Source of the DNA: Actinomycetospora cinnamomea
Lineage (GTDB): Bacteria; Actinomycetota; Actinomycetes; Mycobacteriales; Pseudonocardiaceae
Assembly: GCF_003096675.1 (NCBI RefSeq)
Contig: NZ_QEKW01000021.1
Span: 1 to 64,000, forward strand
Length of the DNA stretch: 64,000 bases
Direction of reading: 5' to 3'
Shown piece by piece: positions 20,125 through 60,029 of this stretch. The notes below the pieces were generated by a model. The model made no database searches. It was not told the DNA's origin and was given only the letters and a program-made list of their open reading frames with translations. The translations under genes and the position numbers were made by a program. The first letter of the stretch is position 1. Each line of letters begins with the position of its first letter.

Positions 20125-20523
20125 TCAGACGATGCGCGGGCCGAGTGCGGCCTTGACGGCCCGGCTCGCGCGGAACGCCCCGAGCACCTCGACCGAGGCG
20201 ATCGTGGCCGTCGCGAGCTCGGGCGGGACGTCGTCGGCGACGGTGGCCAGCCCGAGCACGCGGATGTGCACCTGCTCGCCCCGGTCCCGCAGCGCCTCGA
20301 GGTCGTGCCGCGAGAAGTGCTGGGTGCCGAGGACGAGCGTGCGACGTGCGACCGTCTGCTCGATCGCGCGCTCGCTGGTCGCGAGCTGGTTGCGCACGGC
20401 GGTGCGGATGAAGTCGGTGCGCGTGGTGAAGAAGCCCTCCTGCACGAGGAGGTCGATCCGGCCGAGGTCGACCGGACCGAGGTTCACGGTGATCTTCTCG
20501 GTCCGCTCCGGCTCCGCCACCAT
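20125..20523 (-). CDS. CopG/ribbon-helix-helix family transcriptional regulator
   Basis: A 132-residue protein. Residues about 8-50 form a ribbon-helix-helix domain: EKITVNLGPVDLGRIDLLVQEGFFTTRTDFIRTAVRNQLA, with the beta strand followed by two helices. The C-terminal 80 residues (RRTLVLGTQHFSRHDLEALRDRGEQVHIRVLGLATVADD) may sense a ligand or oligomerise. The ATG at 20523 follows GGGAGGGC by 3-8 bases. It lies upstream of the esterase and is divergent from the selenoprotein operon, with a palindrome between them, so it could control both sides. Confidence 0.8.
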   Translation of the reverse strand: MVAEPERTEKITVNLGPVDLGRIDLLVQEGFFTTRTDFIRTAVRNQLATSERAIEQTVARRTLVLGTQHFSRHDLEALRDRGEQVHIRVLGLATVADDVPPELATATIASVEVLGAFRASRAVKAALGPRIV

Positions 20524-20537
20524 CTGCCCTCCCGACG

Positions 20538-20553
20538 CCATCCACCTGGATGG
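20538..20553. promoter_or_regulatory. Palindrome CCATCC-N4-GGATGG, candidate CopG operator
   Basis: A perfect 6+4+6 inverted repeat in the 84-bp gap between the divergent copG-like gene and the thioredoxin/UGSC operon, 15 bp from the regulator start. Ribbon-helix-helix dimers often bind such sites and control their own gene. Confidence 0.45.
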
Positions 20554-20607: not shown

Positions 20608-22068
20608 GTGACCACGACGGCGTCCTCCCCGTCCGCGGCCGCGCAGGACCTCCCGGCCGACGGGCTCGTCGTGGTGGTCAAGCAGGACTGCCCCACGTGC
20701 CGGCTGGTCGCCCCGGTGCTGGGCGCCCTGGACGCCGTCGACGCCGTGGTCTACAGCCAGGACGACCCGGCCTTCCCGGACGGCGTCGCGGTGCGCGACG
20801 ACACCGCCCTGGACGCGAGCACCGCGCTGGGCATCGACGTCGTCCCGACCCTGCTGCACCGCGCGGGCGGCGCGGAGACGGCGCGCGTCGAGGGCTGGGA
20901 CCGCGACCGGTGGCGGGAGCTCTCGGGCGTCGCCGACCTCGGCGCGGAGCTGCCGGAATGGCGCCCGGGCTGCGGCTCGCGCACCCACGACCCCGCGGTG
21001 GCCGACGAGCTGCTCGTGCGCGCCCGCGGGCACCTGCTCGCCGCCCGCCGCGTCGAGCTCGCCGGCCTGGAGGACGAGGCCGAGGCGCTGTACGACCGCG
21101 GCTGGACCGACGGCCTGCCCGTCGTCGCGCCGACCCCGCCGCGGGTGCTGCGGATGCTGGCCGGCACCACTCGCGCCCCCGACGAGATCGTCGCCGTGGT
21201 GCCGCCCAACCTCGTGCCGGCGACCGTCGAGAAGGTCGCGATCAACGCCGTCCTGGCGGGCTGCCGGCCCGAGTACCTCCCGGTCGTCCTGGCCGCGATG
21301 GAGGCGGCGTGCACGCCGGAGTTCAACGCCCACGGCCTGACCGCCACGACGTGGGGCGCCGGCCCGGCGGTGCTGGTCCACGGGCCGATCGCGCGACGGA
21401 TCGGGGTCAACGCCGGCGGCAATGCGCTCGGGCAGGGCACCCGCGCCAACGCCACGATCGGGCGCGCGCTGCAGCTGGTGATCCGCAACGTCGGCGGCGG
21501 GCGGCCCGGCGAGGTCGACCGCGCGACCCTCGGCCAGCCCGGCAAGGTGGGGCTCTGCTTCGCCGAGGACGAGGAGGGCTCGCCCTGGGAGCCCCTGTCG
21601 GCCTCGCGGGGCGTGCCGCCCGGGGCGTCGGCGGTCACGGTCTTCGCCGCCGAGGGCCCGCGCGGCGTGGTCGACCAGATCTCACGCAGCCCCGAGTCGC
21701 TGGCGCGGTCGCTGGCCCGCGCGCTGCTGGGCGTCGGCCATCCGAAGCTCGCCCCCGGCTTCGACGCGATGCTGGTGCTCGCGCCCGAGCACGTCGCGGT
21801 GTTCGCCGAGGCCGGGTGGGACCGGGCGCGGTTCGGCGCCGAGCTCGACGCGCTGCTGCTCCGACCGCCCGAGGAGCTCGCCCGCGGAGCCGACGGCATC
21901 GACGAGGGCCTGGCCGGGCCGACGCAGCCGCAGCCGAAGTTCCGTCCCGGCGGGCTGCTGGTGGCCGTCGCCGGCGGGGGAGCGGGCAAGTTCTCCGCCG
22001 TGCTCGGCGGCTGGGTCGGCGGCCGCGGCGGCAGCAGCCCCGTCACCCGCGTCATCGAGGAGGCCTGA
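20608..22068 (+). CDS. Thioredoxin-domain protein partnered with the UGSC selenoprotein
   Basis: A 486-residue protein. Residues about 15-105 look like a thioredoxin fold: VVVVKQDCPTCRLVAPVL holds a CPTC redox motif, and the cis-proline region is IDVVPTLLHR. A further cysteine follows in RPGCGSRTHDP. Residues about 145-480 form a conserved domain that I cannot name, with WTDGLPVVAPTPPRVLRMLAGT, VPPNLVPATVEKVAINAVLAGCRPEYLPVVLAA, TRANATIGRALQLV and VTVFAAEGPRGV. As I recall, proteins of this kind usually sit beside UGSC-family genes, but I cannot verify that here. The stop is followed one base later by the selenoprotein start, so the two are translated together. A role as redox partner of the selenoprotein is inference. 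Confidence 0.75.
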   Translation: MTTTASSPSAAAQDLPADGLVVVVKQDCPTCRLVAPVLGALDAVDAVVYSQDDPAFPDGVAVRDDTALDASTALGIDVVPTLLHRAGGAETARVEGWDRDRWRELSGVADLGAELPEWRPGCGSRTHDPAVADELLVRARGHLLAARRVELAGLEDEAEALYDRGWTDGLPVVAPTPPRVLRMLAGTTRAPDEIVAVVPPNLVPATVEKVAINAVLAGCRPEYLPVVLAAMEAACTPEFNAHGLTATTWGAGPAVLVHGPIARRIGVNAGGNALGQGTRANATIGRALQLVIRNVGGGRPGEVDRATLGQPGKVGLCFAEDEEGSPWEPLSASRGVPPGASAVTVFAAEGPRGVVDQISRSPESLARSLARALLGVGHPKLAPGFDAMLVLAPEHVAVFAEAGWDRARFGAELDALLLRPPEELARGADGIDEGLAGPTQPQPKFRPGGLLVAVAGGGAGKFSAVLGGWVGGRGGSSPVTRVIEEA

Positions 22069-22069
22069 C

Positions 22070-22600
22070 GTGACCACCGTCCTGGACCCCACCGACGAGT
22101 CCCGCCCCGCCGCCCGCACGGTCGGCTCCCGCCCCGAGGACCTCACCGGGCGCACCGTCGGCCTGCTCGACATCGCCAAGCCCCGCGGCGAGGTGTTCCT
22201 CGACCGGCTGGCCGCTCTGCTCGCCGAGCGCGGGGTGACGGTGCGCCGCTACGCCAAGCCGACGTTCACGCGGCCGATGCCCGCCGACCTGCGGGCCGAG
22301 ATCGCGGCCGAGTGCGACGTGGTGATCTCCGCGCTCGCCGATTGAGGCTCGTGCACGTCGTGCAGTGTGCACGACCTCGCCGCCCTCGAGGCCGACGGCG
22401 TGACGGCCACCTTCGTCGCGTCCACCGAGTTCGTCGCGGCCACCGACGCCCAGGCCCGCGCGCTCGGCTTCGCCGCGGTGCCCGCCGTCTACGTCGCCCA
22501 CCCGATCCAGGACCGCACCGACGCCGAGATGGCGGCGCTCGCCGACGAGGCGCTGCCACGGGTCCTGGCGGCCGTCACGAGGGGTTCCTCCGAGAGCTGA
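22070..22600 (+). CDS. UGSC family selenoprotein (TGA at 22343-22345 read as selenocysteine)
   Basis: One reading frame runs 22070-22600 if the TGA at 22343-22345 is decoded as selenocysteine, giving 176 residues with Sec at 92. The first part (TGRTVGLLDIAKPRGEVFLDRLAALLAERGVTVRRYAKP, then AECDVVISALAD) and the second part (GSCTSCSVHDLAALEADGVTATFVASTEF, then VAHPIQDRTDAEMAALADEALPRVLAAV) are both typical of the UGSC family, and the motif across the TGA is D-Sec-Gly-Ser-Cys-Thr-Ser-Cys. Cys replaces Sec in many relatives. The second half has no plausible independent start. A SECIS-like hairpin overlaps the TGA, and selD is present at 59016. The family is a predicted thiol/selenol redox protein of unknown substrate. 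It begins 1 base after the thioredoxin-domain gene. If TGA were a stop, the protein would end at 91 residues without its active site. Confidence 0.88.
22343..22379 (+). promoter_or_regulatory. Predicted bacterial SECIS hairpin overlapping the UGA codon
   Basis: Stem pairs 22344-22347 with 22375-22378 and 22349-22356 with 22367-22374 (12 base pairs), with one bulged C at 22348 and a possible extra T-G pair at 22343/22379. The 10-base apical loop (22357-22366) begins with G, and 11 bases separate the UGA from the loop, as expected for SelB-binding elements placed right after the codon. The loop is GTCGTGCAGT. SelB binding is inferred. Confidence 0.7.
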
Positions 22601-22695: not shown

Positions 22696-24072
22696 ATGAC
22701 CGTCGGCGCCGACGCCGGGCTCGCGCACCGGCAGGCGGTGGACGCGGTGCGCCGCGGGCTCGCCGAGCTGCCGCCCGACGCTCCCGTGCGACTGCGCAAG
22801 AGGACGTCGAACCTCTTCCGCTTCCGCGACGGGACGGGCGGCCTGTCCGTCGAGGGCCTCGACCGGGTGCTGGCGGTCGACGCGGACGCCCGCACGGCCG
22901 ACGTCGCGGGGATGACCACGTACTCCGACCTCGTCGCGGCCACCCTGCCCCACGGGCTGATGCCGCTGGTGGTGCCGCAGCTCAAGACGATCACGCTCGG
23001 AGGCGCGGTCGTCGGGCTCGGGATCGAGTCGACGTCGTTCCGCGACGGGCTGCCGCACGAGTCGGTGCTCGAGGCCGACGTCCTCACCGGCACCGGCGAC
23101 ATCCTCTCCACCCGGGACCACCCCGATCTGCTCTCCGGGCTCCCCAACTCCTACGGCACGCTCGGCTACGCGCTGCGCCTGCGCATCGAGCTGGCACCGG
23201 TGAAGCCCTTCGTCCGGCTGCGGCACCTGCGCTTCGACACCGCGGAGGAGACCGCGAAGGCCCTGGCCGAGGTCACGGCGACGCGGGAGTGGGCGGGGGA
23301 GCGGGTCGACTTCTGCGACGGCGTCGTGTTCTCCGCCGACGAGCACTACGTGACGCTCGGCGAGATGGTCGACACCGCGCCGTACCTCTCCGACTACACC
23401 GGCCAGCGGATCTACTACCGGTCGATCCAGGAACTGGCCGAGGTCTCCGGGGTGGGAGTCGACTTCCTGACCATCCACGACTACCTGTGGCGCTGGGACA
23501 CCGACTGGTTCTGGTGCTCGCGCGCGCTCGGCGTGCAGCACCCGGTGGTGCGGCGGCTGTGGCCGTCGCGCTACCGCCGCTCCGACGTCTACCGTCGGCT
23601 GGTCGCGCTCGACCGGCGCCTCGGGCTCTCGCAGGCCCTCGCTCGGCGCGGCGGAGCGGCCGGCGTCGAGCCGATCATCCAGGACGTCGAGGTGCCGGTG
23701 GACCGGCTGCCGGAGTTCCTCGCGTTCTTCCACGACGAGATCGGGATCAGCCCGGTGTGGCTGTGCCCGCTGCGCCAGCGCGACCGACGCTCGTGGCCGC
23801 TCTACCCGCTCGACCCCGACACCACCTACGTCAACGTCGGGTTCTGGTCGGACGCCGAGCTCGCCCCGGGCCAGGCGCCGGACCACCACAACCGCCGCAT
23901 CGAGCAGGTGCTGCTCACGATGGACGGACACAAGTCGCTGTACTCCACGGCGAGCTACCCGCGGGAGGAGTTCGACGCGTTGTACGGGGGAGAGGCCTAC
24001 CGCGAGCTCAAGGCCCGCTACGACCCCGACGGCCGCCTCCCCGACCTCTACACCAAGACCGTGACGGGTTAG
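22696..24072 (+). CDS. tmsA: FAD-binding oxidoreductase TmsA (10-methylene fatty acid reductase)
   Basis: Reduces the 10-methylene intermediate to the 10-methyl branched fatty acid (tuberculostearic acid type) in membrane phospholipids; known from mycobacteria and other actinobacteria as TmsA/BfaA (Rv0449c). The 458-residue protein is a VAO/PCMH-type flavoprotein: RTSNLFRFRDG, then DVAGMTTYSDLVAATLPHGLMPLVVPQLKTITLGGAVVGLGIESTSFRDGLPHESVLEADVLTGTG, the FAD-binding core, and a C-terminal substrate domain. ATG start with GGAGGAGG 7 bases upstream. tmsB follows 11 bases later; no tmsC is seen. It starts 95 bp after the selenoprotein and probably has its own promoter. Confidence 0.88.
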   Translation: MTVGADAGLAHRQAVDAVRRGLAELPPDAPVRLRKRTSNLFRFRDGTGGLSVEGLDRVLAVDADARTADVAGMTTYSDLVAATLPHGLMPLVVPQLKTITLGGAVVGLGIESTSFRDGLPHESVLEADVLTGTGDILSTRDHPDLLSGLPNSYGTLGYALRLRIELAPVKPFVRLRHLRFDTAEETAKALAEVTATREWAGERVDFCDGVVFSADEHYVTLGEMVDTAPYLSDYTGQRIYYRSIQELAEVSGVGVDFLTIHDYLWRWDTDWFWCSRALGVQHPVVRRLWPSRYRRSDVYRRLVALDRRLGLSQALARRGGAAGVEPIIQDVEVPVDRLPEFLAFFHDEIGISPVWLCPLRQRDRRSWPLYPLDPDTTYVNVGFWSDAELAPGQAPDHHNRRIEQVLLTMDGHKSLYSTASYPREEFDALYGGEAYRELKARYDPDGRLPDLYTKTVTG

Positions 24073-49796: not shown

Positions 49797-52730
<2,934 letters not shown>

Positions 52731-52794
52731 GACGCCTCCGGCAGCAGGGCGATCAGGGGCCTCACGCGCTGCGGACGTCACCGTCCGTCGCGCG

Positions 52795-53020
52795 GCCTCC
52801 CCCTCTGCCACTGCCCGCCCGTGCGAGCGCCTGAGAGCTTCGCCGGCTGGGCGGGCTCGCCACCGGCTTGCACCATCGGCGGGTGGTCACTCCGGGGAGC
52901 GGCCACCACTTTCCAGAGGTCGTCTCCTCCGCGCGGTCGGGTTGCCTGAGAGGTTCCGGGGAGGAGTTGCTCCTTCGGCGCCTGCGCCCAGAGGCTTCTG
53001 TGTGCAGGTCTCTCCCGCGC
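52795..53020 (-). promoter_or_regulatory. Tandem glycine riboswitch upstream of gcvP
   Basis: On the minus strand two glycine aptamers lie in series. Aptamer 1 (about 53020-52909) has GGGAGAGACC, GCCGAAGGAGCAA, CTCTCAGGCAA and ends CCTCTGGAAAG. Aptamer 2 (about 52905-52795) has GCCGATGGTGCAAGCC, GCTCTCAGGC and GGCAGAGGGGGAGG. Both contain the conserved CTCTCAGGC. It leads to gcvP about 65 bases further on; no clear terminator stem is seen, so control may be at translation or by Rho. Confidence 0.93.
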
Positions 53021-53042
53021 GGTGTCCAAGAACGACGCGCTG

Positions 53043-57892: not shown

Positions 57893-59023
57893 GTGATCGC
57901 ACCTGTCAGCGGCCCCGCCCTGGGGCTGCCGGCCCACCCCGCTCCCCCGGTGTCCGACGTCCGGCGCCTCGCCGTGCTGCGCGCGAACGGGCTCGGCGAC
58001 TACGTCGTCGCCGAGCCGGCCCTGTCCGCGCTGCGCGCGGCCTACCCGGACGCGGAGCTGACGCTGCTCGGCGCCAAGCACCACGTCGGCCTGCTCGAGG
58101 GCCGGCCGTCGCCGGTGGACCGCGTCGTCACCGTGCCCCTCGTCCCCGGGGTGCGGGTCGGCCCCGAACCGGACGCGAGCGAGGACGAGGTCGAGGCCTG
58201 GTGCGCGCAGCGGCGTGCGGAGCGCTACGACCTGGCCGTGCAGCTGCACGGCGGCGGGCGGAACTCCAACAAGCTGCTGCTGCGCCTCGGCGCCCGGGTC
58301 ACGGTGGGCGCCGCGACCCCCGACGCGCCCCGCCCCGACCGCTGGGTGCCCTACTGGCCCTACCAGCACGACACCATCCGCTGGCTGGAGGTCGCCGCCG
58401 CGGCCGGGGCCACGCCGACACGGGTGGAGCCTCGGGTGGAGGTGACGCCCGCCGACCTCGAGGCCTCGCACGCCGTGGTGCCCCCCGGGGACGCGCCGCT
58501 GCTCGTCGTCCACCCCGGTGCCACCGACGCCCGCCGCTGCTACCCCGAGGAGCGCCTGGGCGACATCGCGCAGGACCTCGCCGGCCGCGGCGCCCGCGTC
58601 GTCGTCGCGGGTGGGCCGAGCGAGGCCGAGCGCGTCGCCCGGGTGGTCGCGGGGATGCGCGCCGAGCCGGAGACCGCGGTCGGCACGCTCGACCTGCCCG
58701 CCCTGGTCGGGCTGCTCTCCCGGGCGACGATGGTGCTGGGCAACGACTCGGGGCCCCGGCACCTCGCGGCCGCGGTCGGCACGCCGACGGTCGCCGTGTT
58801 CACCTATGCCAACCTCGCCGACGTCGCCCCGCTGACCCGCGTGTGGCACCGCGTGCTCGTCTCGTGGCGCGGCGGCTGCCAGGTGTGCGGGCTGCGCGTG
58901 CTCGAGGGCTGGTGCGGCCACGGGGCGAGCGCCACCCACGACGTGGACCTCGAGGAGGTCCGCGATGCGGCCGTCGACCTGTGGGGGCAATCGATAGGGA
59001 GCACGCCGATAGGGCTCACGTGA
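57893..59023 (+). CDS. Glycosyltransferase family 9 (heptosyltransferase-like)
   Basis: A 376-residue GT-B enzyme: VRRLAVLRANGLGDYVVAEPALSALRAAYPDAELTLLGAKHHVGLLEG at the start, LAVQLHGGGRNSNKLLLRLGAR, HPGATDARRCYPEERLGDIAQDLAGRGARVVVAGGPSEAERV, and LVGLLSRATMVLGNDSGPRHLAAAVGTPTVAVFTYANLADVAPL. These match ADP-heptose-type transferases. In Gram-positive actinobacteria the acceptor is not LPS and is unknown. A TAGGCT lies 8 bases before the GTG. Overlaps the end of selD by 8 bases, convergent. Confidence 0.9.
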   Translation: MIAPVSGPALGLPAHPAPPVSDVRRLAVLRANGLGDYVVAEPALSALRAAYPDAELTLLGAKHHVGLLEGRPSPVDRVVTVPLVPGVRVGPEPDASEDEVEAWCAQRRAERYDLAVQLHGGGRNSNKLLLRLGARVTVGAATPDAPRPDRWVPYWPYQHDTIRWLEVAAAAGATPTRVEPRVEVTPADLEASHAVVPPGDAPLLVVHPGATDARRCYPEERLGDIAQDLAGRGARVVVAGGPSEAERVARVVAGMRAEPETAVGTLDLPALVGLLSRATMVLGNDSGPRHLAAAVGTPTVAVFTYANLADVAPLTRVWHRVLVSWRGGCQVCGLRVLEGWCGHGASATHDVDLEEVRDAAVDLWGQSIGSTPIGLT

Positions 59024-60029
59024 CGCGGAGCGTCATCCCGTCCTCGGCGGCCACCAGCTCGCCGATCACGGGGTGGCCGGGGATCTCGCCGGCCAGCAGC
59101 AACCCGCCCGAGGTCTGGGCGTCGGCGAGCAGCAGCGCGGTGTCCTCGTCGACGTCGAGCCGGGCGTGCGGGCGCACCCAGTCGAGGTTGCGCCGCGATC
59201 CCCCGGGGACGTAGCCGTCCCGTGCCGCCTCGCGAGCCCCGTCGAGGAACGGCACGGCGCCGCCGTCGATCACCGCGGTCACCCCGGACGCGCGCGCGAG
59301 CTTGTGCGCGTGGCCGAGCAGCCCGAAGCCGGTGACGTCGGTGCCGGCGCGGACGCCCGCGGCGACGGCGGCGCGCGAGGCCTCGGCGTTGAGCGTCGTC
59401 ATCACCGCGATCGCCGCGTCGAACGCCTCCCCCGTGGCCTTGTGGCGGTTGTTGAGCACGCCGAGGCCCAGGGGCTTGGTCAGCGTGAGCGGGGTGCCGG
59501 GGCGGGCGGCGTCGTTGCGGATGAGCTGCCCGGGGTCGGCCGTGCCCGTGACGGCCATGCCGTACTTCGGCTCGGGGTCGTCGACCGAGTGCCCGCCGGC
59601 GACGTGGCAGCCGGCGAGGTCGGCGACGTCCAGGCCTCCGCGCAGCACCTCGGCGGCGAGGTCGTAGGGCAGCACGTCGCGCGGCCAGCAGAGCAGGTTG
59701 AGCGCGATCACCGGCCGCCCGCCCATGGCGTAGACGTCGGAGAGCGCGTTGGTCGCGGCGATGCGGCCCCAGTCGTAGGGGTCGTCGACGACCGGGGTGA
59801 AGAAGTCGGTGGTGGCGATGAGCGCGAGCCCGTCGCGAATGCGCACGGCCGCCGCGTCGTCGCCGTCCTCGAGCCCGACCAGCAGCTCGCCCTCGCGCGG
59901 GGTCGACGCCGACGGCATCAGCCCGCGGACCACGTCCTCCAGCTCGCCGGGCGGGATCTTGCAGGCGCAGCCGCCGCCGTGGGCGTACCCGGTGAGACGG
60001 ACGGCAGGTGCAGCGGTCATGGTCCCCAT
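59016..60029 (-). CDS. selD: Selenide, water dikinase (selenophosphate synthetase) SelD
   Basis: Makes monoselenophosphate from selenide and ATP, the selenium donor for selenocysteinyl-tRNA(Sec). The protein (337 residues from 60029, or 334 from the next ATG at 60020) shows YAHGGGCACKIP with the catalytic Cys and Lys (C18 and K21 if numbered from 60020; E. coli C17/K20), then ATTDFFTPVVDDPYDWGRIAATNALSDVYAMGGRPVIALNLLCWP, GGHSVDDPEPKYGMAVTG and ADAQTSGGLLLA. Active-site Cys, not Sec. selA, selB and selC are not in this window. It provides independent support for selenocysteine decoding at 22343. Confidence 0.96.
   Translation of the reverse strand: MGTMTAAPAVRLTGYAHGGGCACKIPPGELEDVVRGLMPSASTPREGELLVGLEDGDDAAAVRIRDGLALIATTDFFTPVVDDPYDWGRIAATNALSDVYAMGGRPVIALNLLCWPRDVLPYDLAAEVLRGGLDVADLAGCHVAGGHSVDDPEPKYGMAVTGTADPGQLIRNDAARPGTPLTLTKPLGLGVLNNRHKATGEAFDAAIAVMTTLNAEASRAAVAAGVRAGTDVTGFGLLGHAHKLARASGVTAVIDGGAVPFLDGAREAARDGYVPGGSRRNLDWVRPHARLDVDEDTALLLADAQTSGGLLLAGEIPGHPVIGELVAAEDGMTLRVT

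Follow-up and report, generated by a model that had tools for sequence, protein, structure and literature searches.

A UGSC-family selenoprotein gene of Actinomycetospora cinnamomea with a conserved SECIS hairpin, a thioredoxin-fused partner, and a probable remote kinship to GrdB and PrdB

The 64,000-nucleotide stretch of Actinomycetospora cinnamomea DNA analyzed here (the window) carries a selenoprotein gene that routine open reading frame (ORF) calling truncates at its active site. With TGA read as selenocysteine (Sec), positions 22070 to 22597 of the forward strand encode a 176-residue protein of the UGSC family. Its GTG start (22070) lies one base past the stop codon (22066-22068) of a thioredoxin-fused gene, as the earlier note had described, and the two genes are probably cotranslated. 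The features of the locus, and two further genes of the selenocysteine system, are as follows.

20608..22068 (+): partner gene, 486 aa, with an N-terminal thioredoxin domain (C28-P-T-C31) followed by a family without a Pfam match; start assigned by eye
22057..22063 (+): GAGGAGG, likely ribosome-binding site of the UGSC gene, recognized by eye
22070..22600 (+): UGSC-family selenoprotein gene, 176 aa, GTG start, stop codon at 22598-22600 (PF24696, NF041046)
22343..22345 (+): TGA read as Sec92 in the motif UGSC, giving U92-C95 and, with C98, UxxCxxC (from the codons of relatives)
22357..22375 (+): SECIS hairpin with an 8-bp stem (22357-22364 with 22368-22375) and loop GUG (22365-22367), from conservation and covariation
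59016..60029 (-): selD (selenophosphate synthetase), Cys form, with AIRS and AIRS_C domains and a GGGCACK motif recognized by eye
L010:6512-9772 (-): Sec formate dehydrogenase (FdhA, U190), sharing its contig stretch with tRNA-Sec, selA, and selB

The earlier note had proposed that reading the TGA as Sec92 joins two pieces of one family, which it named UGSC, into a single 176-residue protein. The codon is in frame, and both the kinship of the pieces and the family name were confirmed by profile searches. The match to PF24696 (E value of 1.1e-45; 156.3 bits versus a curated cut-off of 25 bits) covers residues 3 to 170, on both sides of the TGA, and the protein also matched NF041046 (NCBIfam UGSC_fam; 6e-45; 152.9 versus 125 bits). 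Both curated cut-offs were thus passed, and Sec92 (context ALADUGSCTSCSVHD) is present in the U/C-G-S-C motif. Because these matches exceed the cut-offs, the family is one already known. Judged from its profile matches and codons, 22070-22600 is a true selenoprotein gene, a member of the UGSC family rather than the founder of a new one.

The TGA at the Sec92 codon was found in all 80 nearest relatives kept for comparison (79 by script and one, L161, by eye), which were the best 80 of at least 574 confirmed relatives (at least 592 stretches). None had a second in-frame TGA within the matched part. The closest named relative among the matches listed was Actinomycetospora chibensis, whose UGSC protein is 92% identical, and all 27 in-genus matches (from 13 of 18 genomes) had exactly one TGA. 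Since the codon is common to close relatives, it is not a read error, which contradicts the suggestion that resequencing might show TGC or TGT. A more varied sample comprised 50 UGSC hits on 41 stretches (the window and 40 others): 28 had an in-frame TGA, 18 had Cys in the motif, and 4 had no recognized motif, which in one case (L072) was cut off by the end of the stretch. The Cys homologues align their Cys with the Sec92 column. Homologues with Cys or Sec at position 92 thus run through this codon and do not end there.

In one family of the same order (f69; presumably Geodermatophilaceae, going by PMC5330540), all listed in-frame stops in UGSC matches were TAG, and the other matches were free of in-frame stops. 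Among 20 chosen regions of other families, 19 had TAG and 1 (family f56) had Cys. All 10 f69 genomes searched encode a tRNA-Sec whose anticodon is CTA and whose body is very similar (ARAGORN labels it Pyl); one of the 10 has a copy with TCA as well. Across the genomes compared, the UGSC codon and the tRNA-Sec anticodon switch together (TGA with TCA versus TAG with CTA). In the published passages available, tRNA-Sec with anticodon CUA had already been described together with UGSC-motif selenoproteins (PMC5330540), and the TAG-coded UGSC proteins of Geodermatophilaceae described there belong to the same protein family as the window gene, which differs in having TGA and anticodon TCA. The TAG-coded regions that we fetched were mostly of the window's subfamily, with a SECIS hairpin identical in kind. 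One genome (G564; L225 and L235) appears to combine a TCA-anticodon and a CTA-anticodon tRNA-Sec gene, or else is contaminated.

A 12-bp hairpin with a 10-base loop overlapping the TGA had been proposed as the SECIS element. That hairpin can form, as a 41-nt fold shows; however, it is neither conserved nor the SECIS. Folds of 56 and 76 nt favored other pairings. With the T of the TGA as position 1, 56 of 81 close sequences lack its pairs 7-32 and 8-31, and 71 of 81 lack its pair 4-34; its covariation (0.067) does not differ from that of shuffled alignments (0.069). The conserved hairpin lies inside this stem and begins 11 nt past the UGA. In all 81 close sequences its 8-bp stem (positions 15-22 with 26-33) is fully paired. 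Seven of the pairs are invariant, and the eighth, 18-30, is G-C in 59 sequences, A-U in 12, and G-U in 10. On 26 sequences including other subfamilies, 92.3% of the cells were paired, versus 77.7 for shuffled alignments. Five of the eight pairs vary on both sides (reached by 19 of 500 shuffles), in 25 cells (0 of 500), and the covariation was 0.400, a value reached by 0 of 500 shuffles (mean, 0.144). Two of the five measures of this test are less extreme, being reached by 19 and 36 of 500 shuffles. Slid versions of the stem all scored far lower. The set of 26 leaves out six further Sec sequences with A or C preceding Sec, in which, by eye, both hairpin and loop are shifted upstream by one base.

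Of 28 Sec sequences, 22 have the loop bases G23-U24 (the six exceptions being those shifted by one base), versus none of 18 Cys sequences, and the mean folding energy of the segment was -11.1 versus -4.8 kcal/mol for Sec and Cys sequences, respectively. In the Escherichia coli fdhF SECIS, the recognized G23-U24 stands at the same distance. The serine codon in the loop is AGT in 81 of 81 close sequences; of the 322 serine codons counted over 15 stretches of window coding sequence, 2 are AGT, one of them the loop codon itself. No SECIS family in Rfam was matched at an E value of ≤10. From this conservation, the hairpin at 22357-22375 is taken to be a conserved SECIS with compensatory changes between subfamilies. 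It is strongly supported that SelB would bring Sec-tRNA to the UGA at 22343 under the guidance of this hairpin. The earlier warning that standard annotation loses the active site holds, as an ordinary ORF caller stops the gene at 22345; yet that the TGA is a real stop, a pseudogene lesion, or a sequencing error, with the second piece dead or a separate gene, retains virtually no credibility against its presence in 80 of 80 relatives, the conservation of protein and SECIS on either side of it, and the TAG/CTA codon swap.

The source genome is a 5.97-Mb draft in 50 contigs (97% complete). It encodes a tRNA-Sec (72.1 bits, anticodon TCA), located on one 20-kb stretch (L010) with SelA (PF03841), SelB, and the Sec formate dehydrogenase, and selD lies in the window, as had been noted. 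All of the components sought (i.e., selA, selB, and tRNA-Sec) are therefore present, and judged by its gene content (selA, selB, selC, and selD) the genome is able to make selenoproteins. In the available parts of a report on A. chiangmaiensis, formate removal was selenite dependent and SelA, SelB, and SelD were detected in the proteome (PMC7176365); a literature text search returned no use of the word UGSC in that report.

The partner gene is nearly constant. Its start was set by eye at GTG 20608, as a longer listed ORF from 19777 has an implausible N-terminal stretch of 277 residues. The N-terminal domain is a CxxC thioredoxin domain, with each Cys kept in 97% of 77 sequences. A partner gene adjoins UGSC in 79 of the 80 kept loci. 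Of the 50 hits in the more varied sample, 48 have a relative of the partner next to them, and UGSC and partner share one open frame in 14 of the 46 adjacent pairs. Adjacency and natural fusion make it well supported that the two proteins would form one enzyme. The C-terminal region matched no Pfam family at an E value of ≤10, and its profile matched no PDB sequence at the same threshold; a model of the whole partner had no Foldseek match below 1e-3, fumarase rows at a root mean square deviation of about 12 to 18 being discounted. A relationship of the partner to GrdE was rejected (E value of 0.38), and no partner was found beside GrdB/PrdB-like genes in 30 loci, most of which extended no more than about 1.5 kb to each side. 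Thioredoxin was fused to the partner in the window's subfamily alone, which makes the domain's role as reductant conjectural.

The AlphaFold2 (AF2) model of the UGSC protein (pLDDT of 90.3) has an alternating beta/alpha, Rossmann/flavodoxin-like architecture, and its listed structure matches were flavodoxins, response regulators, and similar proteins. The arrangement is a common one, with best TM-scores of about 0.4 to 0.5, and the top VIA row was a de novo design. No thioredoxin-fold chain occurred among the best 50 rows of each of two structure searches, which excludes nothing. These results bear on the reading of UGSC as a thiol/selenol redox protein of thioredoxin-like fold, serving as an antioxidant or in disulfide exchange, which was supposed in passages of the 2008 metagenomic survey (PMC2398784). 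The UxxC motif and the thioredoxin domain of the partner favor such a role, but the Rossmann-like model with its flavodoxin and response regulator matches, and a near-constant partner with catabolic neighbors that suggest a substrate-specific enzyme, make it unlikely.

Those neighbors were recorded around UGSC paralogues (ten identified by a domain check and the others by eye). They comprise peptide-type ABC transporters, CoA-transferase III, AMP-binding ligase, an ATP-grasp CoA-ligase-like protein, zinc alcohol dehydrogenase, a luciferase-like monooxygenase, and a citrate synthase-like protein. Because they look catabolic and differ by paralogue, the substrates probably differ too. A thioredoxin-reductase-like gene lay within 5 kb of UGSC in three loci (one domain checked). 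Flavin reductase was rejected as a conserved neighbor, being near UGSC in 27 of 80 loci only and absent from the window. Two genomes (G132 and G148; L045-L048, L070-L073, and L080) have 7 and 9 UGSC matches, respectively, several within about 100 kb, and these paralogues differ in motif (DUGSC, NUGSC, AUGSC, or Cys) and in neighbors. The neighbors that act on CoA esters (CoA-transferase III, the AMP-binding CoA ligase, and the ATP-grasp CoA-ligase-like protein), together with the frequency of Cys forms (18 of 50 hits), would suit a nonredox Sec/Cys transferase or hydrolase formed by UGSC and partner, in which Sec92 would attack an acyl or alkyl group as nucleophile and thioredoxin would merely keep Sec reduced. 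We consider this an improbable account, given the conserved thioredoxin domain and CxxC of the window's subfamily and the reductive cleavage performed by the GrdB/PrdB relatives, as described in the parts of a 2026 review that were available (PMC13188914).

The kinship with GrdB and PrdB, the Sec subunits of glycine and D-proline reductases, emerged from profile comparisons. With hhalign, UGSC matched a pooled profile of GrdB and PrdB-like proteins with a probability of 91.6 (E value of 8.3e-7, 126 columns, score of 48.8), whereas 29 control families scored at most 28.7. When the active-site columns were removed, the probability was 84.7 (E value of 6.7e-6); against GrdB or PrdB singly, the matches were weak (44 to 46; about 2e-4). 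NCBIfam profiles matched 25 UGSC members at an E value of ≤1 in 13 cases for GrdB and 9 for PrdB. As an unrelated geranylgeranyl reductase profile also matched 6 of the 25 (best 0.0038), these weak NCBIfam matches alone prove little. UGSC proteins lie far under the curated GrdB cut-off (TIGR01917; 14.2 versus 602.2 bits), falling short of the family cut-offs, and PF07355 was absent from the Pfam matches of the window protein at an E value of ≤1. The results support a remote homology between UGSC, a Rossmann-like domain, and the GrdB/PrdB Sec domain over most of the UGSC length, with Sec aligned on Sec and UxxC(xxC) in common. GrdB and PrdB need a pyruvoyl subunit (GrdE or PrdA), whereas no such subunit (PF09338) was found in the 97%-complete draft genome, and the UGSC partner is unrelated to GrdE; the same search was positive in nine of nine GrdB-bearing genomes. 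We also observed short PrdB-like proteins with an in-frame TGA (e.g., TPSUPLC) in other Actinomycetota (L093-L110, except L095 and L099), in which the Pfam GRDB match stops just short of Sec.

Taken with gene, SECIS, and kinship, the explanation toward which we lean slightly is that the two proteins, UGSC and its partner, may together constitute a selenoenzyme that is supplied by thioredoxin and cleaves bonds reductively; the chemistry is proposed from the GrdB/PrdB homology, and the substrate likewise by analogy. A small organic substrate would be bound at the UGSC-partner interface, where Sec92, as a selenolate and with Cys95 and Cys98 behind it, would carry out nucleophilic or reductive cleavage. 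Cys95 (and Cys98) would be the resolving residue, and in the window's subfamily the CxxC thioredoxin domain of the partner could reduce the resulting selenenyl-sulfide. In other subfamilies, a separate thioredoxin and thioredoxin reductase may do the recycling. Glycine reductase receives electrons via thioredoxin, according to passages of PMC13188914. As a further difference from GrdB and PrdB, many UGSC bearers are Actinomycetota, which we take to be aerobic. A rather speculative extension, which we think possible but doubtful, is that UGSC proteins could represent a third branch beside the glycine and proline reductases, i.e., pyruvoyl-independent, thioredoxin-fed Sec/Cys enzymes that radiated in oxygen-tolerant bacteria into many substrate-specific paralogues for the reductive cleavage of organic molecules.

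The 2008 Global Ocean Sampling survey featured UGSC prominently, with 255 sequences, and UGSC proteins rank with the commonest selenoproteins in aquatic metagenomes; that survey also reported fusion of UGSC to "Unknown_1" (PMC2398784, in the parts available). The window protein shares the sequence family and UGSC motif of that family (PMC2398784, NF041046, and PF24696), and no feature sets it apart. UGSC is named in reviews of 2022 (PMC9312934) and 2026 (PMC13188914), the latter stating in the available text that the selenoproteins of a list including UGSC remain largely uncharacterized functionally. Neither a GrdB/PrdB relation nor a reaction is stated in the passages of the open-access UGSC literature that we consulted. 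The location of the SECIS, the near-constant partner, and the GrdB/PrdB relation are what the present analysis adds to the known family, the latter two having escaped the earlier note. With the fixed partner and the probable GrdB/PrdB kinship, what was an "unknown redox protein" becomes an enzyme that can be tested.

Several minor observations were made around the operon and beyond it. Among viral contigs, 17 pattern matches (one pattern assumed Cys) yielded no confirmed UGSC relative. Metagenome bins titled "Bifidobacterium breve" (L127 and L160) contain a UGSC operon 55 to 57% identical; the titles are probably wrong. A divergent RHH_8 regulator gene (20128-20526, reverse strand) adjoins the operon in the window and was found in 1 of 80 related loci; the inverted repeat CCATCCA-CC-TGGATGG (20538-20553), between it and the operon, is a possible operator, recognized by eye. 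Directly downstream of UGSC lies a FAD-linked oxidase gene (FAD_binding_4; 22696-24069, forward strand), which in the clustering of neighboring genes was shared by only one other locus (L041). Elsewhere in the window, a glycine riboswitch (RF00504, 67.9 bits; 52924-53027, reverse strand) was detected just upstream of a 1,004-aa ORF (49797-52811, reverse strand) that by eye resembles glycine dehydrogenase.
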